Origin: Rusavskia elegans
Lineage: Eukaryota; Ascomycota; Lecanoromycetes; Teloschistales; Teloschistaceae
Assembly (NCBI GenBank): GCA_011316305.1
Contig: SAUG01000124.1
Span: forward strand, 1 to 64,000
Direction: 5' to 3'
Length of the DNA: 64,000 bases
Position numbers and translations under genes: made by a program
In this document: positions 19,400 to 43,555 of the stretch, piece by piece
Position numbering within the stretch: the first letter of the stretch is position 1
Layout: each line of letters starts with the position of its first letter
The notes under the pieces: model-generated
Seen by the model: only the letters and a program-made list of their open reading frames with translations
Databases searched by the model: none
What the model was told of the DNA's origin: nothing

Positions 19400-20420
19400 C
19401 GCGGGAATTTTAATAAAACTATTATTAACGGTTATAAAAGCCGTATATCTTTTAGCTAAATAGAAAAAATAAAACGAAATTAGAAAAAAAACGGCGATAT
19501 TATTACTAAATCGAAAAAGAAAATCGATTTTTTTTAATAAAAAAAATTTCGAATAATTTAAAATCTTTTTAAATTAAAAACCGCAAGTTTATTATTATAT
19601 ATTATAATAGTTTTTATATAATTTCTATAATACTATCATTAGCTAACTAATATTTAGTAGAATTTTTAAAAAGTTTTACTATTTTAAAAAAAAGGTTTAT
19701 TATATCGTCGTCTAAAAATTCGATAAATTAAAAAAGAAATAGCGTTAGCGTATAATTAAATACCGTTTAGATTAAATTATCTATCTAAATAAATCGGCGG
19801 CTTATAAATAAATAGATTTAGTTTTTTTTTCCTTTTCTACTAATTTAATACTAATTCGGTTAAATAATAGAAAATTCGGATAGAATTATATAAACGTATT
19901 CTATAAAATTAAATAAAATCTAAAATATTAAAAGAAATAAAATATTTTTTTAATATTAGATATAATAGAATATATTATCTAGAAAATTATTTATAGAAAT
20001 TATATAAACGAGCTTTTTAATTAATTTATTAGATAATATATTCTATCTAAAATAGATATCGGTAATAAATTTCGATTAATATTAGTATTAGATAATACGA
20101 AAATCTATTATAACGCCGAATTAAAAAATATATACGCCGCCGTAAACGTTATATTAATATTTCTATTTCTATATTTTCCGGATTTTAATTTTATCGAAAT
20201 TTTATTTATATTATTAAAGATTTAAATAAAGAAATACTATAGATTTATAAATATTTATAGTAAAAAAAAAAAGAATTTCTAGACTTTTTTAATAACGTTA
20301 TAGAGTTTTAGATATAGAATAGTAAATTAATAGATCTATTTCGCAGTATAGATTATATTTAAAAACTTTAAATAGAAATATATAAAAACTATCGCGAGAA
20401 ATTGACGAAATTCAAATCGT
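19400..20420 (+). pseudogene. Tc1/mariner (IS630-type) DDE transposase remnant
   Basis: The clearest part is 20,083-20,240. Translated, it reads LVLDN followed by an AELK-like helix, AAVNVILIFLF and then PDFNFIE. This lines up with the hallmark mariner block (LDN...HH..., V.L.FLPPYSPDLNPIE) that carries the second and third catalytic acids. Prolines in the hallmark appear as Leu/Phe, as RIP C-to-T changes predict. Upstream sequence has scattered TAA/TAG codons of the RIP type. The boundaries are approximate. It is non-functional. It agrees with the TA duplication and inverted repeats of the whole block. Confidence 0.75.
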
Positions 20421-20617
20421 TTATATATATAAATAGTTTATATCTCCTTTAAAATTTCTATCTATTTTACTATAAATTATTATTATTATTATTATTTAAT
20501 CTAATATAATAGGCTCGATTATCTAGATTTTATATATTATTTTTATTAAATAAATTTTTATAATTTTTCTGCTATATCTAATTTTATATAGTTTATTATA
20601 AAAGGTTTTCCGCCGAT

Positions 20618-20844
20618 TTATTATTAAAATATAAAATTTCAAACTGATTTTCTATAACTATAAAAAAATAAAGTATTTATATATATAAATATTTCCACGC
20701 TAGATTTATATCTATTTCTATACCCGTTTTTACGATTAGCGACCGGATTAATTAATATTCGAATTCGTATATAACTATATAATCTAAATATATATTCTAT
20801 AATTTTTAAATCGTTTATATAATTTAAAATTCTAATTATTATAT
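20618..20844 (-). repeat. Probable 3' LTR of the Gypsy element
   Basis: Direct-repeat partner of 33800-34026. The best-matching core runs from CTATAACTAT through ATTTCCACGCTAGAT to TATATTCTATAAT. It is more AT-rich than its partner, so it was hit harder by RIP. Confidence 0.7.
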
Positions 20845-22089
20845 TTTCTCTTTTCTAAATAAAATATAGAAGGAAGTAAATATTTTCTAAAACTAAATAG
20901 TAATAGAAATAAAACTATAACTAGTAATAATAAATAAAATAAAATAATAAGTAAAAATTTATCTTCGTAAGATTTATATAGAAGTAAATAAATATATTAA
21001 TAGAAACTCGCTATCGACTACTATAATTTCGAACTTTTTAATTTTCGGAACTTTTTCTTTTAATAATTTTATCGATTATCTATTCTAATAATAATAATAA
21101 TAACTATAATAGTATATCGTATCTAATCCGGCGGCGGTTAAAATTATTATGAAATTATTATAAAATAGTAGATAGCGAGTTAAAAAAATAATAATTATTA
21201 TTTATAAAAGTAGTTACTATTTATATATAGTAATAGATACTATAAATTAGACTATTCGATAAAAATATCGTTTATATTAGTAGTTTCGTTAATTTATTTC
21301 GGGAAATATTACCTTTTCTAATAATTTCCGGCGTTAAAATATCGAAATTTATATAGAATATTTTAGTAAATTTAGGCGATTTATCTAGATTATATATCTA
21401 TAAAAGTTTAATACTATTTTTATATAAATAAATTATTTTTTAAATATATACGATCTATTTTCTTTCGAACGACTAATTTTATTTTAGTTATATAGAATTT
21501 AAACGAGTAAATTTTATAGTTTTTATACTAGCGATATTATCCGTTCCTTTATCTATTATATAAATATATAATAGAAATTCGAAGATATTAGACTGGCCGT
21601 CGGGTCGGGTTTCGAATTTAGATTAGCTAATCCGATCCGACCCGAATCGAATTAAAGAATAGTCCGATCCGACCCGAGTCGAGTCGGATTATTATAAGAT
21701 TCGATCCGATTCGGATCCGGATCGAACCCGGGTTTCTAGATTCGACCTATTAAAACTACTAAAACCTTCTTTTCTATATAGAAAACCTCCGCTTTTACTA
21801 TATATTTATATTAATATTTTAGGTACTATTTAAATAGATATTAATTTTTTACTAATAAATAGTAAATAATAATTAAGTTAATATTTATATATCTATATTA
21901 TTCTTCTATATTACTTTATTATCTAAATATAAATTATATTAATTCTAAATCTTTAAAACTAATATAAAATATCTAATCCTTTTATATCTAGCGAGATTTT
22001 TTCCGACGGGTTCTTTTTAGATAAGATCTATCCTAGCTAGTCTATAAATCAGACGGCAAGCCGATCTATAAGCGTTATACTATTAAAAT

Positions 22090-24440
22090 TTAATCGATTA
22101 TATAAAAAGTAAAGACAGATTATTAAAGATATAGCTAATAAGATTCGAACCGACTATCTAGTACTAGTTTTTCGGGACGATAATAGGTATATTTAATAGA
22201 ATCTAGATTACTATAAAGAGTTCGAATATTAGTAGTTTAGTATTTCTTTAGCTATCGGTATTAAAGATAAATTCTATAGAAAACTAGTTAATCCTTTTTA
22301 GTTAAAAAAAGCTATAGAATATATATAGTCGAAATAGTAGTAAAAATTCTACTAGATAGCTTTAATAATAGATAGTCTACCTAAGATTATATATAAAAAC
22401 TATTCTAAGATTTTCGACTATTTTATAACTTCTAGTTCTTCTAATATATCTACTATAAAGAAATTCCTTAATACTATCGTTTACTAAAAAACCAAGCGAC
22501 ATAACTCGTAGTTTTTTATTAAATTAATATTTATCCGCGTAAGTAGCTAATAGTAATATAAAGAGATAATATAAAGCTTATTTTAATTATAGAAAAAGAG
22601 CTATATTAAATTCGAATCTATTTTCGACTAAATCGTATAGGATAAATACCTATATAAAACTTTCTTAGATCTAAATCTACTAGTTCGGACTATCGAAAAT
22701 AAAAGATTTAAACTACTACTATAAATATTTCATCTAGATATAAAGTTTATCGGCCGTATATAATTTATATAGATAGTTTTCGATAGCTATAATACTATCC
22801 GCGAGTAAATTAAATCTAATTTAATAATTTTAGGATATATTTCCTTTATATTAGATATTTAGTTAAGTCTGTAAAAGGTCGCGTATTTAGAAGTACTCGT
22901 ATACTAGATTAATATTTATTTTTAACTTTAGAAACGTCTAATTAGATTTATATTCCTTTCTATTAATTACTCTAGCTATTTATAGTACTAGAAGCTATTA
23001 AAGCTTTTAGAATTTTTCCAGCTTAAGCCGAAGCTTCTAGATATTATTACCGATAATACCAGTTCTAATAGTACGTTAAAAGAAAAGTTTAAAAAGGTTT
23101 TTACTCGGCTCGATAGCCGATAGAATCGAGTCTAAAATTTTCTACTTTACCTAGCTTATATAATTAATCTAGTAGTTTAAAACTTTATTAATACTATTAG
23201 ATTATAGATAATTAGCGACGATTTTATCTAAAAATTAAATAAAAAGTAAATTAGGACTATTAGTACTAGCCTATTAAATATCGTAAAAAAGGTAATATAC
23301 GTAGGTAATATAAATTTAGAAGTTTTAAAACTAATATTTATTTTAAGCTCGTATTATTATAGTCTATATCTCTACCTCCTTTTAATATAAGCTTCGCTTT
23401 AAAGAAATCTAAAAAAGGATCGATTCTAATTTCTAATCTAGAAATATAATTTAAGATATTTATATTTAATAGAATTCGATGTATTTTATAATTCGTCGGG
23501 TATATTAATTATACTATTTTATTAACGAATTTATAGAAAAGAATTCGCAAGATCTATAAATATAAGAGATTATCTTTAATATAAATAAATAGCAACCTTT
23601 TTTCTTTATAGATAGTATATTATAGCCGTTCTATAAAATTACTTTATTAGTTTTAAAAACTATAGATATTAGAATTTATTTAGTATTCCGACTTTATAGT
23701 ACTATTTTCAATTATTTTATTAGAATAGAAAAAGTAGTTCGATTATCGAACTACGCTAATAAAGAAATAATATTAATAGTTTATAATAATACTTATATAA
23801 AATTTACGAAATATTATTTTCGTACTAAAAATAAAAGTAGATTAATTTATAATATTACGAATATTTTAGATTCTATAGTAAAATTTAACCTTTATCGAAA
23901 CTAGAATAAAAAAGATAACGACGAAAAAATAAAAGACTTTTTAAAGTATAAAAATAGGTATCGGAACGAATTTAAAGAATATTTTACTAAATACTACAGG
24001 GAACCTATTAATCTATTAAAATCTAAAACCCGCCGTATAGAGAAAAATAAAGTAATATAAAAAGGTAATATATTATAACTTTACTAATCAGTTTAAAGTC
24101 TATTTTATCTATTTTAAATAATATTTTTTAATAACTTTAGCGTTTTCGAGCAGCTGTTTCCGAAGCTAATCGATATCTTTATACTAATACTACCGAGGAA
24201 AATCTAAATTAGATATTCTAGAAAAATAATACTTCGAACTTTCTAAAACTAATATAGATAGCTCGCAATATTTTTATTTATCTAATATCCTCGGTAGGAA
24301 TAGAGCAGACTTTTAGTTTTATAAGGAAAGTTTATTAGTAGGATTAAATCTAAATAATTCCAGAGTATATAGAACAGATAATAATAATTAAATACTATAA
24401 CCGTACTATAGATTTAGAAGTAGAAAAAGCTTTAAAAGAG
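22090..24440 (+). pseudogene. hAT transposase remnant
   Basis: Two blocks are recognisable after translation. At about 23,040-23,190 it reads IITDNTSSNSTLKEKF and then LAYIINLVV, matching the hAT RNase-H-like core (TTDNASNN...CLAHVINLVV) with a catalytic Asp. At about 24,240-24,410 it reads ARNIFIYLISSVGIEQTFS and IIPEYIEQIIIIKYYN, matching the C-terminal hAT dimerisation domain (ARD.L.IPSSS...E..FS...LSPETIE). In-frame TAG/TAA codons are spread throughout, as expected from RIP of CAG/CAA/TGG codons. The N-terminal boundary and any BED zinc finger could not be fixed. It is non-functional. Confidence 0.8.
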
Positions 24441-25299
24441 CTATAGGATATATATAACCGGGTAAAACTAGAAGATAAAATTCTATCTAGAAAACGGGAT
24501 CCCTTTAAAAAGGAATTTAGGAATATTTTAGATAGATTAATCTAAGTACTCTTTAGTTTAGAGAAAAAATATCTATTCCTAATATTTAGACTATTTCGTC
24601 GATTTAAATATTAAATTCTAAACTTTCGACTTTAATAAATAGAAAAATATTAAAAAAATAAAAGAATTTAAAGTTTTACCGTATTAAATAGAAGTTTTAT
24701 ATTTTAATAAGATTTATTATATAGTAGATAATTTAAATATAGTTAAAATCTTTCTAGAATAGATGATAGATCGAATAGATTAATAAAATAATAATAATTA
24801 ATTATTTTTTTATAATAGATTTATATAGAATACTTTTATAAAACTTTAGATAAAATTTCGAAACTTAATTTAATTATATAGAAATAACTTTTTATATTCT
24901 AAATAAAATTATTTCGCTAAAATTAAAGTAAAGACAGCTATAAAAGAGATAATTAACTTCTAGCTAAATAAAAAATTAAAAAAGTTTATAATAAAAAGAT
25001 TTAAAATTAAAATATTAAATATTTAATTTCTTTTTTTCTATTATTAAACTTTTATTACTAAATCTACTACGTAGATATCAGATTCACTCTTTATTAGAAT
25101 CTCGGTCTCTTTATATATATCTTAGAATAATAGTAGATTTAAAATTAATAAAATAATAAAAATATATACGAATTTAAAAATTTTAAATCTATAATTTTAT
25201 ATTAAAATATATTATTCAGATAAAATTAGTTTTTTTATTAATAATATAGTAATATATCGAAGTAATATATTTATCTAAATCTACTATTCCTAGATATAG

Positions 25300-26260
25300 A
25301 TAACTAGTTAAAGAATTTAATAATCTCTTTTATATTTTTATTTTGATCGTCTTCGGTTTCCGCCTCCGCCTTTCTTTCTATATCTCCCCTCTTTTCTATA
25401 TCTTTATCTTTATCCTTATCTTTATTCTCGTCCTCGTCTTAATTAAAGTTAATAATTTTAATTAAACCTTTATTATCTTTAAATTCAGTATTATTCTACG
25501 TAGAAGAGTACCTCTCTACTATCTAATCCTTTTTATTAATTTTAATAATATTATCGCTATTCTTGTCCTTCTTTCTATAAAAAGATTTAATATATTTATT
25601 AGCTATATTCCCGCTATAACTAAATTTTTTAGTAAACGCCGTCTATTCCTTTAAAAGATCTAGAGTTCTAGCGGACTAAAGTTTTTAGAAGCCGGTATAA
25701 TAGATTACTTATTATTAGATAAAATTAACGATTAAAGCTATATACTTTATTAAAATTACTCTATTCGGACTATTAAAAGCGATATTAGACTAGAGAAAAT
25801 ATTAGAAATAAATATTCCTATACTAGATAGCTTTATTTATATTCGATATATTATTCTAATATATTACTTTACTCTATTCCTATTTTATCTATTTAATAGT
25901 TATTACCTCTTCCGTATTTTTTATAAAAGCTTTAATATATAGATTGTTTTTATAGTATAATATTATATATAGATCAGTATCTAGTATAGTGTATATTATT
26001 TTATTATATTACTATATATCTTTTTTTCGATTCTATAGTCTATCTTCTAATCTTTTATATTCTATTCTAATACGGCCTTTATCTCTATATCTACGCTATT
26101 CTAGAAATCTATTTCTTTAAATTTTTTAAGGTATTTATATATCGTAATACGGTCCGTATTCTATTTTTTATAGAGTTTATATTTAGTATCAGACTACTTT
26201 TTACCGCGTTTACGGTTTATAATTAATTTAGATTTTATAGATAGTAGTTTTAATTTAGAT
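25300..26260 (-). pseudogene. Unrecognised hAT-borne open frame (RIP-mutated)
   Basis: On the minus strand the sequence reads as protein-like text for some 300 codons if RIP-type TAA/TAG are taken as former Gln/Trp codons. Near its start are NRKRGKK and YKYLKKFKEIDF. Later there is a stretch TKKFSYSGNIANKYIKSFY, and near the end a strongly acidic/basic repeat rich in Asp-Lys pairs (about 25,340-25,440 on the map). The first and second halves are in different frames, so an intron or an indel is needed. I do not recognise a family. It lies between the transposase and the H3-like remnant and points toward the transposase. Confidence 0.4.
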
Positions 26261-26678
26261 ATAATAGATAGTAAACTAAGTAATATAGTAGAATAATATA
26301 ATTAGTAGCTATAGAATTATCTAAAAACTCTATATATTATAGTAGTAGAATACGCTAGAAATTTATAGAAGTATATAGGCTTATTTAAAGTTCTAGCCCT
26401 CTAGCTATAGTATAGCCGACGATTATCTAAATAACTTTATTTTACTTTTAATCTTCTATTCTTTAATAATTAACTACTATAATAAAATATTAATATACTA
26501 TATACCGTATCGTATTATATTTTATTCTATTATTAGTCTTTCGTTTTTTTTATTCGTCGTAGCGTAATATATAGTACGTATAAATCTAAATAGAAATAAT
26601 ATATTAAAATAATATAATTAATCGTATAATAACGTTAAAACTATTCTAGATAAGAAATTAATTCCGTCCTATAGAAGT

Positions 26679-27119
26679 ATAGTAAAGACTTAAGAAAATA
26701 GAATTAAAAAAGATAAAAAAAAAAGTAAAAGGAAATCTTATAGCGCTATAGTACCGGTAATATTCTAGAATAATATATTCTAAATAGTCTAACTAATAAT
26801 CTATTAAAAGAAACGTAAATAGAAACCTAGAACCGTTACTTTTCGAAAAATCCGCAGATACTAGAAAGGCTTCGAACCTTTTATTTCTAAAGTACCTTTC
26901 GCTAGACTATATCGCGAAATCTTTACTAACGTCGCTGCCGTAAATATAAATAGAAGGATTAATAGAATATAAAGTATAGCGTTAATTGTTCTATAGAATA
27001 CGATAGAAAGATATATAATTACTTTTCTAATAAATAAATATATTATTTTACTATATTACTATATATATCCGACTATATTTATTTTTTATAGATTATTAAC
27101 TAGCTGTAATCTATATTAA
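26679..27119 (+). pseudogene. Histone H3/CENP-A-like remnant inside the hAT element
   Basis: From the codon ATA at 26679 (a plausible RIP-mutated ATG) one frame of 146 codons runs to TAA at 27117-27119, the size of an H3-type histone. The tail (residues 1-48) is Lys/Arg-rich. Residues about 49-81 read KPRTVTFRKIRRY, stop (former CAG, Gln), KGFEPFISKVPFARL, any residue, REI. This follows H3's KPGTVALREIRRYQK, ELLIRKLPFQRL and VREI at about two residues in three, with no gap. PFARL is the form seen in fungal CENP-A. The loop to the next conserved QS is about 6 residues longer than in H3. ALQ-, E- and Y-positions of alpha-2 follow, and the length to the end equals H3's. The alpha-3 region is poorly conserved. 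All in-frame stops are TAA/TAG of the RIP type. It is non-functional now. Confidence 0.65.
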
Positions 27120-27658
27120 ACGCGTTACTATTTAATAGAAAGATGTTTAGTTTATTAAAAGATTAATATAGAATCTGGAGGTATAGCCGGAAATATAACG
27201 ATAGCTAGTTAATAATAAATTCTAAAGGATTAAAAGTTCTAGAAAAAAAATATATATCTATAGAATTATTTAAAAGAAAATAATACTATTTATATAGTAC
27301 CGGTATATAAACTAGTATTAAATAGAATATATTACCGTTTATATTATCTATAATTACTTTCGTATTCGACTATCTAATACGATTATAAATCGGGTCGAAT
27401 CGAGTTTCTATCGGATTCTATTCTATAATCCGATCCGATTTTCGGTTTTAATACTAGGATTCGATCCGACCCGTTTAACGGGTCGAACCGGTTCGACCCG
27501 CCAAGACTCGGGTCGGATACTCGACGGTTCGACGGAAATCCGACCCGAAGTGGCCAGACTAGAAGATATATATAGTAACTATTTATAGAAATACCGTTAA
27601 AATAAATATCCGTATTTATTATTATATAGATCGTAATCTATAGTTAATATAGAATTTC

Positions 27659-28223
27659 TGTTACGGATATAAATCCCGTAATTTTCTAGAAAATAAACGG
27701 ATATAAAAACTAAAAGCCGTATAGACGATAATTTTATACCGCTTTCTTTTATTTTACTATAGCTATACCGATTATCGTCGAAGCGAATTATAGACTATAA
27801 TATTTTTTCGCCCGATTCTTTATAGAATAATAGAGATTTTAGTTCTTGAGTTTTATTTTTCTAGTCTACTATTAATAATTCTAATAGATTTAAATAAAAA
27901 AATAATCTTTCTATAATTTAAATCGAAACTTTATTAGCGAATATAATTAAAAGAAAAAAAGCTAATAGTCGTCTGTTAATTAGATTTCTATTATATATAT
28001 TAAAGGTTACGAATTCGTTTAATTATATATTTTTATCGAATACCGATTATATATAATTAGATTTTTAGTTGTATTTTGTATTTTTTTTAGAAATTATTTT
28101 TTCTTTTTTTAGCGTCTTCGGATCTAGAAAATATATTACTTTTACTAGTCGTTTCTATTAACGCCCGCGCGGCTCGCCGCGAGACTCGCCGTATATATAC
28201 CTTTAAGGTATAGTATATAACAG
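27659..28223 (+). repeat. LTR-like segment with TGTTA...TAACA ends
   Basis: A 565-bp stretch starting TGTTACGGATATAAATCCCG and ending AGTATATAACA, followed by a plus-strand open frame (GNFDFIESNKYIKSKEQE). The palindromic ends resemble an LTR. I found no second copy in the window and no target duplication, so it could be a solo LTR, part of a truncated element, or chance. Confidence 0.3.
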
Positions 28224-28799
28224 TTTAACGTTAAATAAATCGATTCTAAAACGAAAGAAAACGCGAACGCGGAAACTTCGGTTTTACTAATAAAGATCGC
28301 TCTAGTCTTTAACGGAAATTTCGATTTTATCGAAAGTAATAAATATATTAAATCTAAAGAATAGGAGATAGTTATTTAGATTTCGGCGTAGCTATATTTA
28401 AAATACGATAGTTATATTATAAAAAGCGATTCTATTATATTTAAACTTTATATTAGAATATAGAAAATCTTATTTTCCGAAATTTTAATTTAAATTTTTC
28501 CGGTCTAATAAATATATATCGTACGTATTTTAAAATAAAAAACTGTATCTAAAAACGCTATTAAATTTTTATTAAATATAATTCCGTAAACTAGTAAAAA
28601 GTTTCGCTTTTAACGTTATTTTAAAATTATTTATATATTTATTTATTTTTTATTCTACGGGAAATTAATAAAAATAACTTTTTTTTAAAATAAATAAAAG
28701 GTAAAGATATTATATCTAAACAAGAATTAAATTATATTTTAATATATACGAATATATAAAGTAATAAATAAAAGTAAAAATTTAATTAATTTTTTCTTT

Positions 28800-31700
28800 T
28801 TCTAGAAATTTATATTTTATCGTCGTTTTTTTTACGGAAATTATTTTTAGATATAGATCTAAACTTAGATAAATAATTATTATCTACGTTTTCCGCTAAT
28901 TTCAGCTTGCGAAATCTCTTTCGTTTATATTTTTCGCCTGGCGGAGGCTGTTCTATAGTAACTTTCTTTAATCTTTTACGTCTATAAAGTATTTTCTATC
29001 TAATAATAATATTTTTTTCTTTAAAATATTTCTTTATATAATCTCTACTAATTAGATATTTATTAATTAATCTACTAAAAGGTTTCAGAATATAGATATT
29101 TAAAATCTTCGTTTAAATAACTTTATATAGACTATACTAGTTAACTTCGAATTTTTAAAATTATTTAGTTTTAATTAAAACTATATTCCTTTTAATAAAA
29201 ATATTATCTTTTATCTTTAAATTCTATATCTTTTTATTAGCTTTTATTTGTATTATTATATCTTTATATACTTTAGCTCGATTACGCGAAAGAAATAGTA
29301 TAGGATCGATTCTTTTATAAAATCTTTCCGGAAAAGAGCTAGAAGTATTAGTCGGTAGTATTAGGTTAACGTTATAAAAAAATAAAAGGATAAAAATCCA
29401 ATAGTCGTATATATATAAGAACGTATAGTAAATAGAATCTAGTTAAAATAAAAGTTTTAAATTTTTTTCGGCTATCCGATATAGTATTTAGTAAATATTT
29501 TCCCGAGAATTCTATTAAATCTTTTAATAGCGTTATTCGTTCGTAGATAATTAAACGTCGTACCTTAATATTTAATTCCTAGTAGGCGGTATATCTCGTC
29601 TATAGCTAGAATCTAAAGATTTATACTTTAATTAGTAATAATTTCCTTCGGAAAACTATAATTATAGTAGATCCGATAAATAATAAATTCGGCTAGTACT
29701 TTTACTATTACGTTTAGAAACGACTAAACTATAGACTATCGGATAGTATAGTTAATCGTGGTTATAATCTATTTATTATCTAGTTCGGTTTCTAGTAAAA
29801 AATCGATAAAATCGAATTTCTAATATTTAAAAAAATTTAATCTATTTTTCTAGATACTAGAAAAATATATTATATTCTATTTAATATCGCGAAAAATAGA
29901 AGTAAACTAATATTCGAGATAGTATTTAATATAATATTTAATATCCTTTTTTATTTCGGGCTACTACTATTTTATATAAATAATATCTATTATTATTTTA
30001 TATAAATAGTAATTATATTATTTATAGATATAGTCTAGAAAGTTCGTACGAGCCTATACTAATATTTAGGGTATCTAATTATTTTAAAACGAGTTTCGGT
30101 ACTATACTATATTATTTTTAACTCGGAAATAATATTCGTACTTTTCTAAAATAATCTTTATTTCCAGATTATTAAATAAGGTTCTAGACTCCGTATAAAT
30201 TCTAATAGCGTCGTTAAATAAAATTATACGATTATCGACTTTACTAATAAATAGCTAGAAGTTTCTTTTTTAATTTAAAATATCTACTACTGTTATTTTA
30301 CTATCCGGTTTATATTTAATATCGAGTTTATATTTTCTAAATTCTACGAGCTAGTAAACGAGCTTTTTAGAAGGTTTAGTAGTAGTTTTAAAATATTATA
30401 AATTTATATAATCCGTTTTAATAGTTATAATTATTCCGTTTTTAATATAGCAGCGCTATTACTATAGAGATTTTTTAATTATAAAAAGTTTTTACTTATA
30501 GATAGCGTAATTATATTTTATAGATATAAATACCTTGCTTTTAAAAGTAATAGACTATTTAATACTATCGGTATTAACCTAGTAGAAAACGGCGTTCTAT
30601 CTAAAATCGGAAATATCTATTTCGATAATAAAAAATAGAGTTATATCGGGTTAAATAAATATTTTATCGTTTATTATAATATTTTTAGTTAGTTTATACG
30701 TATTTTAAACGGAAAAATTTATTCGAATTAGTTTATATTTTTTACCTTCTAAACTTTAGATTAATTTATAGAAAAATCTATATATTAGCGCGAAATCTTC
30801 TATAAATCTCCGGTAATAGATATATAATTCTAAAAAGAACCGTATATCGTATATTATTTATAGCGGCGGCCAGTCTTTAATAGTTTTTACCTTCGCTATA
30901 TTTATACGGATTCTTTTATTATTAATAATATATTTATAGAATTTAATATACTTTTAGAAAAATAGATATTTTAAAGATTTTATAAATAATTAGTTTTTTT
31001 CGAATATTTCTATAATAGTTTTAATATACTATAGGTATTCCTCCTCGTTTTTTAAATAGATTAAGATATTATCGAGGTAAATAACTACGAAATTATCGAA
31101 AAACGATTTAAATATATTATTTATTATAGTTTAGAATATTATAGATACGTTCGTCAATCTAAATAATATAACTAAAAATTTATATTTACTAGCTTTAGTA
31201 TTAAAAGCCGTCTTTATACGATTTTTATCGATAATATTAATCTATTAGTAACCGTTTATTAGATTAATTTTACTAAAGTACTTTACTATTCTAATAGTAT
31301 CTAGATAATCTTAAATTTTAGATAATAGATATCTATTCTTTATAGTTATATTATTAAAGCCTCGGTAGTTAATATATATACGCCAGCTGTCGTCTTTCTT
31401 TTTAGTAAAAAGAACAGGCGCGCTCTAAAGAAATTAATTTAATCAAATTAATTCTCGTTCGGTAAAATATTTAATCTAATACTTCTATTTTTTATTTTAT
31501 TTAAAAGATAAACTATAATAAATTCAATTAATAGGTCGAATATCGCCGGTTTTAATTATATAATCTAATAGCTTTTCCGATAGTAGTTTTATTAGAAGAT
31601 TATTTTAGAGACGATCTAGAAATTTCGGGCCGAAAATTCTATCTAGTTCTATATAACCTATCGTTTTCTAGACCGGATTAAATTATTTCGGAAAGTTAGG

Positions 31701-32120
31701 TTCGTTTTATATAATATATAGGCAGGCCTATACGCCCTTTCTAATAAATTCTTCGAATCTTTTAAAATTAATTTCGAAAAATTCGATCGAGATATTTTTA
31801 AAAATTTATAAATAATATATATTCGAGACGCTATATAATTAATATATATTTCTATTTTTTTAGATTCGTATTTCTAGAATATTACAGTTAGATATTAAAT
31901 TATATTATTTCTAGAAATCTTTTCCGAATATTAGATTATAGTTTATATCTAATATTATATTAAAAATAGTAGTAGAAAAGATTTTATAAAACTATAAAAG
32001 TTCCGTTACTTTTAAAATATCTATAGTTTTACTGTTTTCGAGCTATATTTTATCTGATAACTACTAGAACTCTAATTTAAAAAGGTTAATAATACGCCTA
32101 GAGATAAAGTAATTAGTGGT
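28800..32120 (-). pseudogene. Gypsy pol remnant: protease, reverse transcriptase, RNase H region, integrase
   Basis: Read on the minus strand. About 31,850-32,120 shows a retropepsin-like stretch (NYFISRRIINLF, then IFGKDF). About 30,920-31,430 shows reverse transcriptase ([49 protein letters not shown]). About 29,340-29,825 shows integrase (FPKEIIT, DEIYRLLGIKY, IKRFNRILGK, GFSPFY). The polypeptide continues to about 28,800 with a basic tail (PPPGEKYKRKRFRK). The catalytic YLDD appears as YLDN, exactly the change a TpG-to-TpA RIP mutation makes in GATGAT. Many TAA/TAG codons interrupt it. The RNase H part was not checked motif by motif. Confidence 0.8.
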
Positions 32121-33799
32121 ATCTAAATTAATAAAAAATTTAAAACGATTTCTACTAATTTCCAGATTAAACTATATCTATCTATTAAAATTCGGTATTC
32201 GATCTATATATAAAAGTCGTTTACTATTCTATATATTTCTAAGCGACGGTATTATATTACGGAAAATAGTTAAAACCTTTTCCGGCGTCTTTTTAAAAGT
32301 TATTTCTAATTCTTCGATCTATACTTTAACTAGGCTAAGCTATTCCTCTACTATTAAAAGCTTTATATCGATATTATACGTATATTCGGATACGTATAAT
32401 ACTAGGTATTTTCCGATAATCTATTATTAATAGTCGCCGATAGGTTTTTCCTTTTAGAAAAGATCTAGTTTTCGGAAATATATCCCGGAATATAAACGTT
32501 CCGGTAATCTTTTTTACGATAGCTAGATTTTCTATAATTATAGTATTTATTAGAGCTATTAGATCCCTTTTATCTATTTCTTCCTTTTCGACCGCTTCGG
32601 TTTTAACCGCGGCTATTCTAATTATTTCGACTAGTATTTATAGAATTAATTTCGGCGGTATTAGATTATTCGACTATCAAAAAAGCTATAATATTTTGGT
32701 TACTATAACGTTTAGTAGTAACCTTTTCGAATATTATTACTGCGTTTATAATATTTATAAAACTTATTGATTATTTATTATTATAAAGTAAAATATCTTT
32801 CGATAATTATCTAGATATTAGATTTTAAATAATCGATAAAATATTTTAAATAGTATATTCGCTAATTTTACTTTTAATATCTATATATAATTTAATAAAT
32901 ATAGAATAATAGTTTTTAATATCGCTAAATTTCGTATTCTAGGCTAATCTACGCTAAATAGCTAAAATATTTTCTATAAAATTCGGTTTATTCTATTATT
33001 TTAAAAAGGCTTTTTAAAAGTATTTCTAGAAACTTTTATCTAGGTTAAAAACCTATTTAATATACTACGATTCAGTATTTTTAATAAAATATTAACTATT
33101 ATAGAAAACGGGATCCGCGATAGTTATATTATAAAATAAATAGTAGTATTTATAATAGCAAAGCCAAATATAGACGATATAGTAGTTATATTTATAATCT
33201 TTAAAGTTAGAAAACTTTTTATTATAGACGTTCTATATTATATAAGCTATAGAAATATTAAAAGTATTAGAAAAAATAGATTTACGTAACAGCAGATAAA
33301 GATTTCTACTAGAAGGCTCTAGTAGTCTTTAATTAAAGCTATTATAATCGGAACGACGATAATCTAAACCGGTATAACTATTTCTATAATTTATATAAAG
33401 ACGATTAAAAGATCGATTATATCTATTACTAGATCTATTCTTATTATCGTTATTATAAAAAAAGTTATTTCCGGAAATATCTAGAATACTTCCGAAACTA
33501 ATTTTTTTTCTAAAAGAGTCGTTTTCTATAATAGATATAGTCCCGAATTAAACCGTAAATAAATTATTTAAAAGAATTCTATAGCGGGATTTCTAATTTA
33601 TATATACTTTAAAAAAAGCTGTTATTTTATTATATATCGTTATTCGTTCTATACTAGTACCGAGTTAAAAATAGAAGAAATATTTTAGTTAAAAACTTAT
33701 ATTCGAACTTAGAGAATTTCGTTTATAAAAATAAATAAAACCGGTTTAAAAAAGTTTTAATAATAAAATAAAATTAGATTATTTATAGTTTAAAAAATT

Positions 33800-34026
33800 A
33801 TTACTACTAGTATAGAATCCCAAGTTAGTTTACTATAATTATAGAAAAGTAAGATATTTATATATATAAATATTTCCACGCTAGATCTATATTTATTTCT
33901 ATATCCGTTTTTATAATTAGCGACCGAATTAGTTAGTATCCGAATTTATATATAACTATATAATTCAAATATATATTCTATAATCTTTTAAACCGTTCGT
34001 ATAATTCAAAATCTTGACTACTATAT
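33800..34026 (-). repeat. Probable 5' LTR of the Gypsy element
   Basis: Direct-repeat partner of 20618-20844. It retains some CpA (CCCAAGTTAG, ATAATTCAAA) where the other copy has TpA, showing the direction of mutation. Its right end directly abuts the CGGCTAA-repeat element. Confidence 0.7.
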
Positions 34027-34644
34027 CAGCGGATTCTAAAATGGATTTTCAGATTAGACCGGCTAACAGCTATTTCAATCCAAATAATCTAAATAATCTA
34101 ATTAATCTAATTAATCTAAAAATCTAAAAAGTAGATTTTCGATAAATTAAAGTTCTAATAGTATCTATAGTACGAATATCTATTTAGTAAACAGCTTAAA
34201 ATAAGATCTATATATAAACTAAAAATAAGCCTATATAATCTTATTCGAAAATAAAGTTTAGCGGCTGCCGCTAAAAGCGGGAATAACGGAAGTCGAATAT
34301 CTATTTAATAAATTACGCTAGACCTAATCTAATTAGATTTTAGTAAAGAAATATATTATTTTCGATCTAGATAAAGCTAGTCTAGTATTATATATAGGCG
34401 TATATAGGCCTACTAACTACTAATAAAGATTTAAACGAGTTTAAAATCGAATTTCTAAATTTTTTTAGCCGTTTTAGCCGTTTAGCCGTTTTAGCTATCT
34501 TAGCCGCGTAGCTATATAGTTTCGAGTATACCTAAAACCGGCTAATAAGCCGTTTATAAACCGCTCTTAGCTGTACCGGCTAAGAACCGGCTAAGACGGC
34601 TAAGACGGCTAAGACCGGCTTCAAGCCGGTTTTGGAAAATGCTG
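34027..34644. mobile_element. 618-bp non-autonomous element with CGGCTAA-type repeats
   Basis: Starts CAGCGGATTCTAAAAT. Its right end, reverse-complemented, starts CAGCATTTTCCAAAAC (11 of 16 positions match, most differences being RIP-type). The right third has tandem GGCTAAGAC/CGGCTAAG and TTAGCCG motifs in both orientations, like hAT subterminal repeats. The left part has repeated AATCTAATTA units. There is no coding frame. ATAT lies on both sides, too weak to call a target duplication. It directly abuts the Gypsy LTR at 34026. Confidence 0.5.
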
Positions 34645-36707
34645 ATATACAAAGATTGGTATAGAAAGGAAAATTATTTTAAAAAGAATTTAATTAAAGG
34701 TAAGAAGAAAGTAGCTATTAGCTTTTATATTATCTATAAAATTCGCTGGATTCTTTTAGTATAAATTTAATAATACTAAATTTTATTTTAAACGCGTTCT
34801 ATTCTTTTTTTAAATAAAAATCCCGCTTCTAATTTTATAGTACTATAAGGTTATAGTCTATATCTTTAATAGAAGCGAAGATATTCTATAATTATTATAT
34901 CTTTATCGATTTAATACGGAAAAGATATTATAGAAATTTATCGAGCTCGCTATTAATAAAACTATTTAGAAAAACTATTAAAGCTTCGGGCTATCTAGTA
35001 TCGATAGTAGTAGGTCTAGTTCTATTCGAAAAAAACGAATAAAATAGTAATCGAATTATATACTACAATTAAATATATAATTATAGACGTTCTCGCCGTT
35101 CTTTTTATTTTAGTTTTTTTTTTCGCTTTTTTCTATCTTGCCGGTCCCGAGCTATATTCTACTAGATTAAATAAACTAGTATCGTATTATTACCTCTATT
35201 TAGTTAAATAACGATAGAATTAAAATTATTACTAGCGGTAGTTTTCGTAATAGTATTTTCTTTCTATTATTTTTTTTTTCCTTTTATTTTAGTAGGAAAT
35301 CTAGAATATATATAGCGATAGGTTTTTAAAATCGTAGTTTCTTCTTTTATCTATATTACTAGCCTAGCTAATAATATAAAATATACTAATTCTATAATAA
35401 TAACTATTATAAATATTAGAATCCTTTTAATAATAGATATTTATTTTTAAACTTTTCTATTTATATATAGTAGACCGGTAACGGAGTTTTTTCTATAGTT
35501 TTTAAACTTTTAATAGAGACTAGCCTTTTATAATTCGCTCTTTATCGCGTTTAACGGCTTCGAAAATAAAAATCTAAATAGTAGTACCTTTTTTTAATAT
35601 AGAAATTTAAAGTAGAAGTTAAAATTATCTAATTATAATCTATAATAACGTCGTTTTAATCTTTTAGCTAAATATTATAGATAAAATTATATACTTTTTA
35701 TTTTCGATTAAATACTATTTAGTCTATTTAAATATTTTTTACTAATAGCCGAAAGCGAAAATATTTAGATCGATTTTAGTAAAAGTCTTTTTATATAATT
35801 TCTAAAATATAAATTTAAATTTTATATTAATCGAAACCGTATTAAATAAAGTAAACTTTTCTATAGTAGCGTACTTTCTTATAATACTCTTTATTAAAGT
35901 AAAGAAATTATTAAAATCGATATAATTTCTTCTACTAGAAATTATATTAATTCGATTTATATTTAATTCTTTTTTATAAAATATATATTTTTAGATAAAA
36001 AAATAACTATATAGTTTTTCCTTTTTCTTTTTTTCTAGATCTAGATCTAGATCTAATAATAGCGAAACCGGCAGTAGTAAAAACTTCTTTTAATATTTCT
36101 TCGCTATAACTATTCGAGAAATATTATTCTAAGAAATTTAAATAGAAAAAATCTAATTTTTAGAATTAACTAATAGTATAAAAATAAGAAAATTATTACT
36201 AGAAAAAGCGCTACCGCGAATATTTTTATCGATTTAATTTTCGATATAATAATAATAAATTTAAGTTATTAAATAGTTATATATATCTAATATTTAAAAA
36301 TATAGATTTTTTTTTACTTTTTCTTTCGCTTTTTTTTTTCTACTTTTTTCTCTTTTTTTACCGCGGAGCTAACTATAATCGGAATAGAAAATTTACTTTT
36401 TATAATAGACTTTTTTTTACTAGAATTTCTTTCGCTATAGGTTTTTTTTTTCGGCGATAATATAGTAGATTTCCGGACTATAAATTTTAATTTTTAAATA
36501 GAAAGAATTTTAATATTAATTTAAAAAATAGTATATTTATATCCTAGAGCCGGCGGCGGTAGTAACGGCAAGATATTATTATCGGAAGAAAAAAAGACGG
36601 CTTTTTTCCTATAAAATATAATAATAAAAACCTCTATTAAAATTTATAAATATAATACTGCGGCGAGCTTTAATTTAGCCGAATTAGGTATATAAATTAG
36701 GTTAGGA
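34645..36707 (-). pseudogene. Unidentified RIP-mutated coding remnant at the right end of the island
   Basis: A minus-strand frame reads through about 36,000 to 35,450 with only RIP-type TAA/TAG interruptions (fragments such as LAKRLKRRYYRLQLDNF and FSKPLNAIKSEL). A very Lys-rich/Thr-rich segment lies near 36,300-36,400. A CTAGAT microrepeat is at about 36,039-36,057. I could not match it to a transposase or retroelement domain. It may be the remaining part of the outer element or a further insertion. Confidence 0.35.
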
Positions 36708-41881: not shown

Positions 41882-43555
41882 ATGGCCGAGCAGGACGAGC
41901 CAGAGCATTATCAAGCTCTCGTAGACATGGGAAGTAACGGCATTCGCTTCTCCATATCAAACCTTTCACCCCGAACTGCACGACTCATGCCTACCATCTA
42001 CCAAGACCGCTTGGGCCTTTCTCTCTACGATGCCCAATACCAATCCGGCAACAAGGTCCCGATTTCTCAGTCCGTCATTGATCAAGTCCTAAAGGCCCTT
42101 TTGCGCTTCAAGCGGATATGCGAAGATTATCATGTTCCCCAAAACAATGTCCGCATCGTTGCCACAGAAGCGACGAGGAATGCTATCAACAGTACCGCTT
42201 TTCGTCAGCAGATCGAGGAAGCTACGGCGTGGAAGGTCGAGATGCTGGCCAAAGAAGATGAAGGCAGGATCGGGGCCATGGGCGTCGCCAGCAGCTTCGG
42301 CACCATTAAAGGCCTTGTCATGGATCTAGGAGGAGGAAGCATCCAAATGACTTGGATGATCTCCGAAAACGGCGAGGTCCGCACCAGTCCCCAAGGTGCC
42401 GTGAGTTTTCCCTACGGCGCGGCAGCACTGATGAGGCGACTGGCCGAGGCAGGTGTCGAGGGCCATGAGCCTCTGCGCAGGGAAATGTCCACCAACTTCG
42501 AGAAAGCACTCCACGACCTTGAAATCCCCGAGACCCTAAGCAAAGGAGCGGATGAAGACGGCGGTTGGACGCTCTATCTCAGTGGCGGCGGCTTCCGTGG
42601 ATGGGGATACATTCTCATGTCAATGCACTCAGTCAACCCATACCCCGTTCCCATCATCAACGGCTTCCGAGTCCCAAGATCATCCTTCCTACCCAACGTC
42701 AAGGAGTACTCCGATCCGGAAACCACATTCCGCATATCTTCACGAAGAGCATCACAGGTCCCTGCCATCACCTTCTTGATAAAAGCGCTCGCTGAATCCA
42801 TCCCGTCCATTGCATACATCCATTTCGCTCAAGGAGGCATCCGCGAGGGTCTCCTATTCTCCCGTCTTCCCGCAGATATCCGGTCTCAGCACCCCCTTGT
42901 GACTGCCACACAGGTCTATGCTCCTCCATCTACTTCTTCATTATACCAACTGTTGAAGAAATCGATTCCTCCAGCCCACCGATCCGACTCCTCGAAAGAT
43001 CTACCCGCCACTCTGACTTCTCCTGGTTTCCTCACCTCGACTATCCAACTACTCTACGCCCATGCTTCCTACCACAAAGACATCAGCGCGGCCGCCGCGT
43101 TGCGTAGCACCACGACCGGTATCTTAGGAAACGCCCACGGACTGAGTCACACCGACAGAGCTCTACTCGCCCTGGTGATGTGTGAACGATGGGGAGGCGA
43201 GCTGAGCTCGAACGACGAGCAGTACTTATCGAAAATGCAAGAGTTCGCTGGACCACAGGCGAGCTGGTGGGCCAAGTACATAGGGCGTGTAGCCGGCGGT
43301 ATCGCTGCGCTGTTCCCGGCGGGAGTGGTAAGGGAACATGAAGGGTCTGGAGTGGATGTAGCAGCGTCATGGTGTACCGTGGAGAAAAAGGAGGCGGTGG
43401 AAGCTATCGATCTCCATATTCGGAACAGAATCCAGGATCTCGATGGTGCCATCGAAGTTTGGCTGCATGAGATGGAGAAGGTGGGTAAGAAGAAGAATTG
43501 GATCGGGGGAAACGGAGGATGGGGTGTTAAGGTTATAACGACTGGTATGAAATGA
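41882..43555 (+). CDS. RTG2: Ppx/GppA-fold protein, Rtg2-like retrograde regulator
   Basis: An exopolyphosphatase/Rtg2-family actin-like ATPase fold protein. In yeast Rtg2 transmits mitochondrial dysfunction to the nucleus. It is a single exon of 557 aa. The phosphate-1 motif is VDMGSNGIRFSI (residues 14-25). Then come EATRNAINST, the phosphate-2 motif VMDLGGGSIQMTW (about residues 146-158), LSGGGFRGWG near residue 235 and FAQGGIREG near residue 318, all in the order of the family. The C-terminal half corresponds to the Rtg2-specific helical region. It is intact. Function as a retrograde regulator is by homology. An exopolyphosphatase activity cannot be excluded from sequence alone. Confidence 0.88.
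   Translation: MAEQDEPEHYQALVDMGSNGIRFSISNLSPRTARLMPTIYQDRLGLSLYDAQYQSGNKVPISQSVIDQVLKALLRFKRICEDYHVPQNNVRIVATEATRNAINSTAFRQQIEEATAWKVEMLAKEDEGRIGAMGVASSFGTIKGLVMDLGGGSIQMTWMISENGEVRTSPQGAVSFPYGAAALMRRLAEAGVEGHEPLRREMSTNFEKALHDLEIPETLSKGADEDGGWTLYLSGGGFRGWGYILMSMHSVNPYPVPIINGFRVPRSSFLPNVKEYSDPETTFRISSRRASQVPAITFLIKALAESIPSIAYIHFAQGGIREGLLFSRLPADIRSQHPLVTATQVYAPPSTSSLYQLLKKSIPPAHRSDSSKDLPATLTSPGFLTSTIQLLYAHASYHKDISAAAALRSTTTGILGNAHGLSHTDRALLALVMCERWGGELSSNDEQYLSKMQEFAGPQASWWAKYIGRVAGGIAALFPAGVVREHEGSGVDVAASWCTVEKKEAVEAIDLHIRNRIQDLDGAIEVWLHEMEKVGKKKNWIGGNGGWGVKVITTGMK

Follow-up and report, generated by a model that had tools for sequence, protein, structure and literature searches.

Within the window, the whole 64,000-nucleotide stretch of DNA from Rusavskia elegans that was analysed, lies a hAT element (Table 1) that carries a histone H3-type gene ruined by RIP. 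The ends, the target-site duplications, the transposase domain, a complete H3 fold read in two frames around an intron, the high copy number and RIP were all observed. They are very probably explained by a hAT family that carries an H3-like gene (from here on H3L), the copy described here having been inactivated by RIP; on this reading an intron-less H3 copy would have been captured long ago, would have acquired an intron and would have been expressed and retained by selection during the active life of the element. Because H3L lies downstream of the transposase and inside the terminal repeats, it was multiplied and moved with the element.

Table 1. Features of the hAT element and its H3-like gene (window coordinates; "." = no strand given)
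Feature	Position	Strand	Remarks
hAT element	21589-27561	+	5973 bp; ends TAGACTGGCC / GGCCAGACTA within perfect 8-bp duplication
Target-site duplication, left, GAAGATAT	21581-21588	.	direct repeat outside left end
Target-site duplication, right, GAAGATAT	27562-27569	.	direct repeat outside right end
Left terminal inverted repeat TAGACTGGCC	21589-21598	+	
Right terminal inverted repeat GGCCAGACTA	27552-27561	+	
Transposase region, RIP-ruined	22017-24561	+	extent by alignment with sister copies
hAT dimerisation domain	24210-24392	+	PF05699, 24.7 bits, cut-off 21.4
Central region, coding strand ambiguous	24620-26600	.	between transposase and H3-like gene
H3-like gene, 5' part: tail, alpha-N, alpha-1, loop 1, alpha-2	26679-27033	+	exact start insecure
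H3 core block, 69 codons	26823-27029	+	same block of the L044 copy used as genome search query
Intron in loop 2, 58 bp	27034-27091	+	5' GT mutated in window copy; ends TATAG
H3-like gene, last exon: loop 2 end, alpha-3 (K-R-V-T-I...K-D), short tail	27092-27198	+	other frame; TAA stop inferred
CpG-rich subterminal repeats (GGGTCGAACCGGTTCGACCCG and related motifs)	27391-27546	.	echoed at 21601-21675

An earlier note on this DNA had described a hAT element bounded by a perfect 8-bp target duplication, and GAAGATAT is indeed found at both ends. The label hAT is a tested one, since the dimerisation domain (PF05699) is above its cut-off at 24210-24392 on the same strand as the H3 frame; in the least damaged sister copy (C179/L044, with a GC content of 0.337 the highest among the eight copies measured) it reaches 29.9 bits (cut-off 21.4). 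With terminal inverted repeats, an 8-bp duplication and this domain the window element is a hAT element. The remaining transposase of the L044 copy (430 residues searched) gave no Pfam match, nor did the central region of this copy in the four of six frames that were tried. By eye several minus-strand frames of the latter look protein-like in the L044 copy, with a Lys/Asp-rich end, but neither Pfam nor the codon phase of transversions singled out a coding strand. The motif GGGTCGAACCGGTTCGACCCG at the right end of the element is near-palindromic, and related motifs stand at the left end (21601-21675); these CpG-rich subterminal repeats, possibly sites for the transposase, were barely hit by RIP because they are without CpA.

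When the 441 bp of the frame first read were used as query, 40 scored matches were obtained in the genome among 323 candidates; the 69-residue H3 core of the least damaged copy gave 150 scored matches among 289 candidates. Element ends were inspected in a sample of 20 loci of approximately 10 kb extracted from the genome. At seven of them both ends and the 8-bp duplication were inside the stretch, six of the duplications being perfect and that of L044 having one C/T difference; end candidates at L028, which were low-complexity 8-mers with one mismatch, were discarded. The elements thus delimited are long forms of 5298, 5336, 5418 and 6243 bp (L033, L036, L037 and L044) and short forms of 2728, 2812 and 2981 bp (L031, L035 and L039), and those inspected have one H3 match inside each. 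Since ends and duplications bound these H3-bearing sister elements, the H3 gene travels with the element. The earlier note had considered that related hAT copies might lack the H3 segment, which is not what was found: an H3 core lies downstream on the same strand at no fewer than 22 of 40 transposase places and at 17 or more of 32 dimerisation-domain places, both numbers being lower bounds because the list of H3 places used is incomplete. Upstream or on the opposite strand an H3 core was in range at 4 of the 40 and 2 of the 32, respectively.

The RIP substrate index (CpA+TpG)/(ApC+GpT) is 0.11 in the element versus 1.26-1.30 in the flanks, and the element is in an AT-rich island with a GC content of 0.22 versus 0.52 in the flanks. 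The island surrounding it is approximately 17 kb long (19500-36500 of the window, GC 0.22). The ten stops in the window frame are without exception TAA or TAG, as had been noted before. Their proposed origin by RIP of CAA and CAG is supported by the index and by the finding of CGA, CAG or TGG in some of the 22 copies at five of the nine stops before the intron (26691, 26766, 26790, 26805 and 26862), but these codons are absent from all 22 copies at the other four (26781, 26820, 26970 and 26994). In-frame stops were present in 149 of the 150 scored H3-core places, among which no intact copy was found. The sole stop-free core, at C164:104071, was rejected as such: it is AT-rich and heavily mutated, has stops in the last exon and has lost the AG at the 3' end of the intron.

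The frame from 26679 to 27119 reads KPRTVTFRKIRRY-stop-K...PFARLYREI. In alpha-N and alpha-1 of the window copy 20 of the 32 readable positions are identical to H3 of the host (counted on the alignment), in close agreement with the approximately 21 of 32 given in the earlier note. The copies were used with their natural letters and X at the stops, and as profiles of natural copies. On the Pfam Histone profile (PF00125, cut-off 26.4 bits) the window copy alone scored 18.8 bits (E 0.002) and in a genome-wide scan 22.9 bits, also below the cut-off, whereas three sister copies (C202, C179 and C158) were above it in the genome scan with 34.5, 32.4 and 26.9 bits, and the least damaged copy, with X at stops, reached 46.2 bits. 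The histone HMM check that had been suggested for de-RIPed letters, when run on the letters as they stand, was thus below the cut-off for the window copy and above it for the L044 copy. In comparison with yeast H3 (PDB) the L044 copy gave an E value of 2.6e-17. In the query behind the 46.2 bits and the 2.6e-17 the tail stretch 26757-26822 was omitted, which hardly affected the matched residues, 17-114 and 26-121, respectively; in the query for the 2.6e-17 M stood in place of I at the start. A profile of 14 natural copies (14 of 16 aligned rows, L047 and L049 being excluded and L005 cut after the core) matched yeast H3 in the PDB with E 2.1e-17 over a span from just before alpha-N to alpha-3. 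Sister copies and profile bear out the H3-type frame inside a hAT element that had been read from one copy. Judged by its sequence, the element gene would encode a histone fold, with alpha-N, alpha-1, alpha-2 and alpha-3 in H3 spacing.

The genome-wide PF00125 scan yielded 17 matches, of which 7 are copies of the H3-carrying hAT family; the other 10 sit in sequence with a GC content of 0.44-0.52. A stand-alone, GC-normal and divergent H3 variant of the host (L012, G000:C214:42716-42916) has 54.8 bits on PF00125. In the protein collection a single-copy query, likewise without 26757-26822, found no match among 26 candidates, and the 14-copy profile found three proteins among 5358 candidates (P0121, P0122 and P0123), all of them H3 variants. 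Unusual among H3 proteins for a long or altered tail, they were rejected as relatives of the transposon gene because the longer loop 1 is missing from them. Absence from the protein collection says little, since protein prediction may have passed over copies that are spliced or RIPped.

The tail encoded by the element gene is rich in Lys, Arg and Gly and by eye cannot be aligned to ARTKQTARKS. K-R-K-S is kept in at least 4 of the 22 aligned copies (L001, L002, L004 and L043), and the tail of the window copy has KRKSYSA; the claim that the tail is without every ARKS-like site cannot be made. Since a conserved modifiable tail was not recognised, the gene is regarded as an H3-like variant rather than as a replication H3.

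In the frame first read the likeness to H3 ends at approximately 27029 and resumes at approximately 27094 in another frame. In the least damaged copy (L017/L044) 58 bp bounded by GTAAGT...TATAG separate the two parts, and removing them restores the exact H3 length at loop 2; among 30 displayed copies four have retained the G at the 5' GT (L017, L005, L008 and L043). In the last exon Y-x-L-A-x-I-x-x-K-R-x-T-I-x-x-K-D is recognisable by eye in 20 of the 22 copies, L005 being frameshifted and L033_772 weak. The 146-codon frame of the earlier note is therefore present as described, but its last 28 or so codons are intron, and the gene ends near 27198 in another frame; alpha-3, which had been thought too degraded, is recognisable there, at 27092-27198. 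Neither the H3 gene (L009) nor the CenH3 gene (L010) of the host has an intron at the loop-2 position of the element gene. The host H3 gene is interrupted at KPG/TV, the one of its two junctions that the comparison covers, whereas by eye and by alignment the transposon copies continue through KPGTV, so that the element gene appears to be without this host interruption, as in a retrocopy. Given an uninterrupted KPG/TV and a private intron in loop 2, the simplest history would be that an intron-less copy was captured and acquired the intron afterwards.

The MAKTR-like start at 26679 (compare MARTK of H3) is insecure, since in the diverged subfamily this codon stands for Leu. A 66-bp intron at 26757-26822 (GTAATA...AAATAG) was rejected, since between the main and the diverged subfamily (L022, L031b) transversions in it are below the average of the neighbouring core and since at three of the five stop positions some copies have TGG, CGA or CAG.

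RIP yields transitions, and transversions therefore report divergence other than RIP. Between the best copy and L022 there are 6, 9 and 16 transversions in the core at codon positions 1, 2 and 3 (of 69 each; Fisher p 0.018). In the comparisons of the best copy with L022, L031b, L047, L049 and L050 the numbers are 6-7, 8-10 and 13-17, with p values of 0.018, 0.086 (not significant), 0.037, 0.022 and 0.006, respectively, and the five count as a single split, these copies being one diverged subfamily. The 3' non-coding control had 13, 11 and 9 transversions of 89, 90 and 91, and the tail, best copy versus L022, had 7, 3 and 4 of 44, without codon-position bias. The pattern is also absent from L033_772 (77% alike), with 0.072, 0.036 and 0.025. 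From the all-copy comparison 3 of 19 main copies (L038, L039 and L042) were excluded as frameshifted. The codon-position bias in the H3 core is thus a modest signal. The two subfamilies are 62-66% alike in DNA, and both retain the H3 core. The intron of its own, the core kept across subfamilies and the codon bias together suggest that the element gene was once expressed.

In 2010 the repeat R25 of Phaeosphaeria (Stagonospora) nodorum was reported to have similarity to histone H3, with H3 of Pyrenophora tritici-repentis as the best match (PMC3017866). By the accessible part of that deRIP paper R25 has in common with the element described here that it is a RIP-degraded repeat with a weak likeness to DNA transposons and with H3 similarity; the paper re-classified it as a presumed endogenous gene region, and that part gives no account of an element anatomy. 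In 2013 a 5.6-kb hAT element of P. tritici-repentis with a transposase, a central ORF and an H3-like gene was described, together with a 2.3-kb short form (Manning et al., 2013; PMC3538342). According to the accessible part of that paper its H3L fits neither H3 nor CenH3, ESTs exist, and a figure legend marks introns in ESTs, the gene being unspecified. In 2019 Dhillon et al. found RIP-killed H3-like copies by the hundreds in hAT elements of six genomes from Cercospora, Pseudocercospora and Sphaerulina, and argued for a captured transcript, in events independent of Pyrenophora (PMC6710886). The H3-carrying hAT element is therefore a known kind, published for Pyrenophora, Pseudocercospora, Cercospora and Sphaerulina, although the earlier note was aware of no histone-encoding hAT family. 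As far as these sources are accessible, the published cases are from plant-pathogenic Dothideomycetes and were attributed to H3 transcripts that were captured independently and met different fates (PMC3538342, PMC6710886). An H3-carrying hAT element in Lecanoromycetes was not found in the literature searched, most subscription journals lying outside that search, and the accessible part of a paper on the lichen Cladonia mentions none; nor was an intron of its own in a transposon H3 gene found in the accessible parts of PMC6710886 and PMC3538342. Added to the known cases are thus the lichen-fungus host from another class, the Lecanoromycetes, the own intron and the H3 core retained in two subfamilies with a modest codon-position bias.

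Compared by description, as far as the paper on it is accessible, the P. tritici-repentis element shares with that of R. elegans the dimerisation domain, an H3L between terminal inverted repeats and the long and short forms, and the two H3L share an altered tail and the fit to neither H3 nor CenH3; transposase and H3L of the R. elegans element are on one strand, and the middle part, 24620-26600, may be the counterpart of the central ORF. The two differ in host class, Dothideomycetes versus Lecanoromycetes, and in condition: 26 very similar copies, two of them frameshifted, are given for P. tritici-repentis, versus the 150 scored places in R. elegans with their 149 ruined cores. With the hAT elements of Pseudocercospora, Cercospora and Sphaerulina there are in common the 8-bp target-site duplication, RIP-killed H3 copies in AT-rich blocks and one intact host H3 (PMC6710886). 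The P. fijiensis element, however, has 9.5 kb, one or two H3 copies and no intron, and a dimerisation domain was not found in it (PMC6710886), whereas in R. elegans the long form has 5.3-6.2 kb, one H3, the 58-bp intron and the domain. Of the traits of a Pseudocercospora-type capture the R. elegans gene shows the absence of a host intron, at KPG/TV, but with its loop-2 intron it is not intron-less.

That H3 was captured separately in Lecanoromycetes and Dothideomycetes, instead of descending in one old lineage of H3L-carrying hAT elements, has an even chance. The hAT consensus sequences of Dhillon et al. are without similarity to the P. tritici-repentis hAT (PMC6710886), which is as expected for separate captures; against them speak, by the accessible description of the Pyrenophora element, the like plan of transposase, middle part and H3L, the paired size forms (5.6/2.3 kb in Pyrenophora versus 5.3-6.2/2.7-3.0 kb in R. 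elegans) and an H3L in both that fits neither H3 nor CenH3.

It is also conceivable, with somewhat less than an even chance, that a copy of an H3 transcript was trapped once, rendered the element no service and was amplified as a pseudogene, which is in essence the view of Dhillon et al. for Pseudocercospora (PMC6710886). The nearly universal stops, the uninterrupted KPG/TV, as a retrocopy would have it, and the weakness of the codon-position bias agree with such passive cargo. It leaves unaccounted for the intron that is absent from H3 and CenH3 of the host, the H3 core retained in two subfamilies so far apart in DNA, and, in many elements, an H3 that shares its strand with the transposase and lies to one side of it.

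The earlier note favoured a CENP-A-like protein because of the PFARL form and a loop 1 longer than in H3. The loop is longer, by six residues in the main subfamily and by seven in L045 and L031b, but it is also unlike that of host CenH3. The least damaged copy is identical to host H3 in 44 of 87 positions (51%) and to host CenH3 in 38 of 92 (41%), the window copy in 37 of 84 and 31 of 89, respectively. At the 25 sites at which H3 and CenH3 of the host differ, the best copy has 7 times the H3 residue, once that of CenH3 and 17 times neither. A tree with H3 and CENP-A, as proposed earlier, was calculated from 13 rows, including, as in the alignment, 7 of the 22 H3 copies (with X masking the last exon of L030 and some of L031b) and, as outside references, human H3, yeast H3 and human CENP-A, with the root at the midpoint. 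In it all transposon copies group in a single clade (100/100), and host and human CenH3 in another (97/95); RIP damage accounts in part for the length of the transposon branch, and L012 falls outside the transposon clade. CENP-A names were absent among the 60 PDB matches listed of 176 for the L044 query and among the 60 listed of 172 for the 14-copy profile. Identities, diagnostic residues and tree led us to reject a CENP-A identity, and a captured or element-encoded CENP-A working at centromeres is very improbable. That an AT-rich frame resembles H3 by chance, as the score of the window copy by itself under the Pfam cut-off might allow, is practically out of the question, sister copies being over the cut-off and alpha-3 being in register past the canonical intron.

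In the history of capture and loss that we prefer, an intron-less H3 copy would long ago have been captured by a hAT element and have gained its intron within it; the spliced H3L would have been expressed and maintained by selection as long as the element was active, and RIP by the host would afterwards have ruined the copies examined. H3L could have been a variant H3 placed on chromatin, perhaps that of the element, favouring expression or mobility of the element. This is a guess, and a tentative one, at what is the most likely role; such a working, chromatin-acting H3L and passive cargo are about equally likely. Less likely still, indeed rather doubtful, is that H3L, instead of being accidental cargo, belongs permanently to an old hAT lineage in at least two classes of Ascomycota, which with its own histone variant, distinguished by the altered tail and the longer loop 1, alters chromatin at its copies and evades or delays silencing, the host countering by RIP. 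With a member from a lichen fungus, an own intron and a trace of constraint across subfamilies it is worth asking whether a histone was kept as a working part of a transposon, and, should intact relatives turn up, the action of a transposon on chromatin via its own histone could be tested directly.

The host was placed by one gene in the right flank (41882-43555), whose protein shares 95% identity with a protein of a Xanthoria sp.; its next five matches, from Calogaya, Polycauliona, Flavoplaca and Xanthoria parietina, are at 79-85%. Xanthoria forms lichens, and its lineage belongs to the Teloschistaceae of the Lecanoromycetes.
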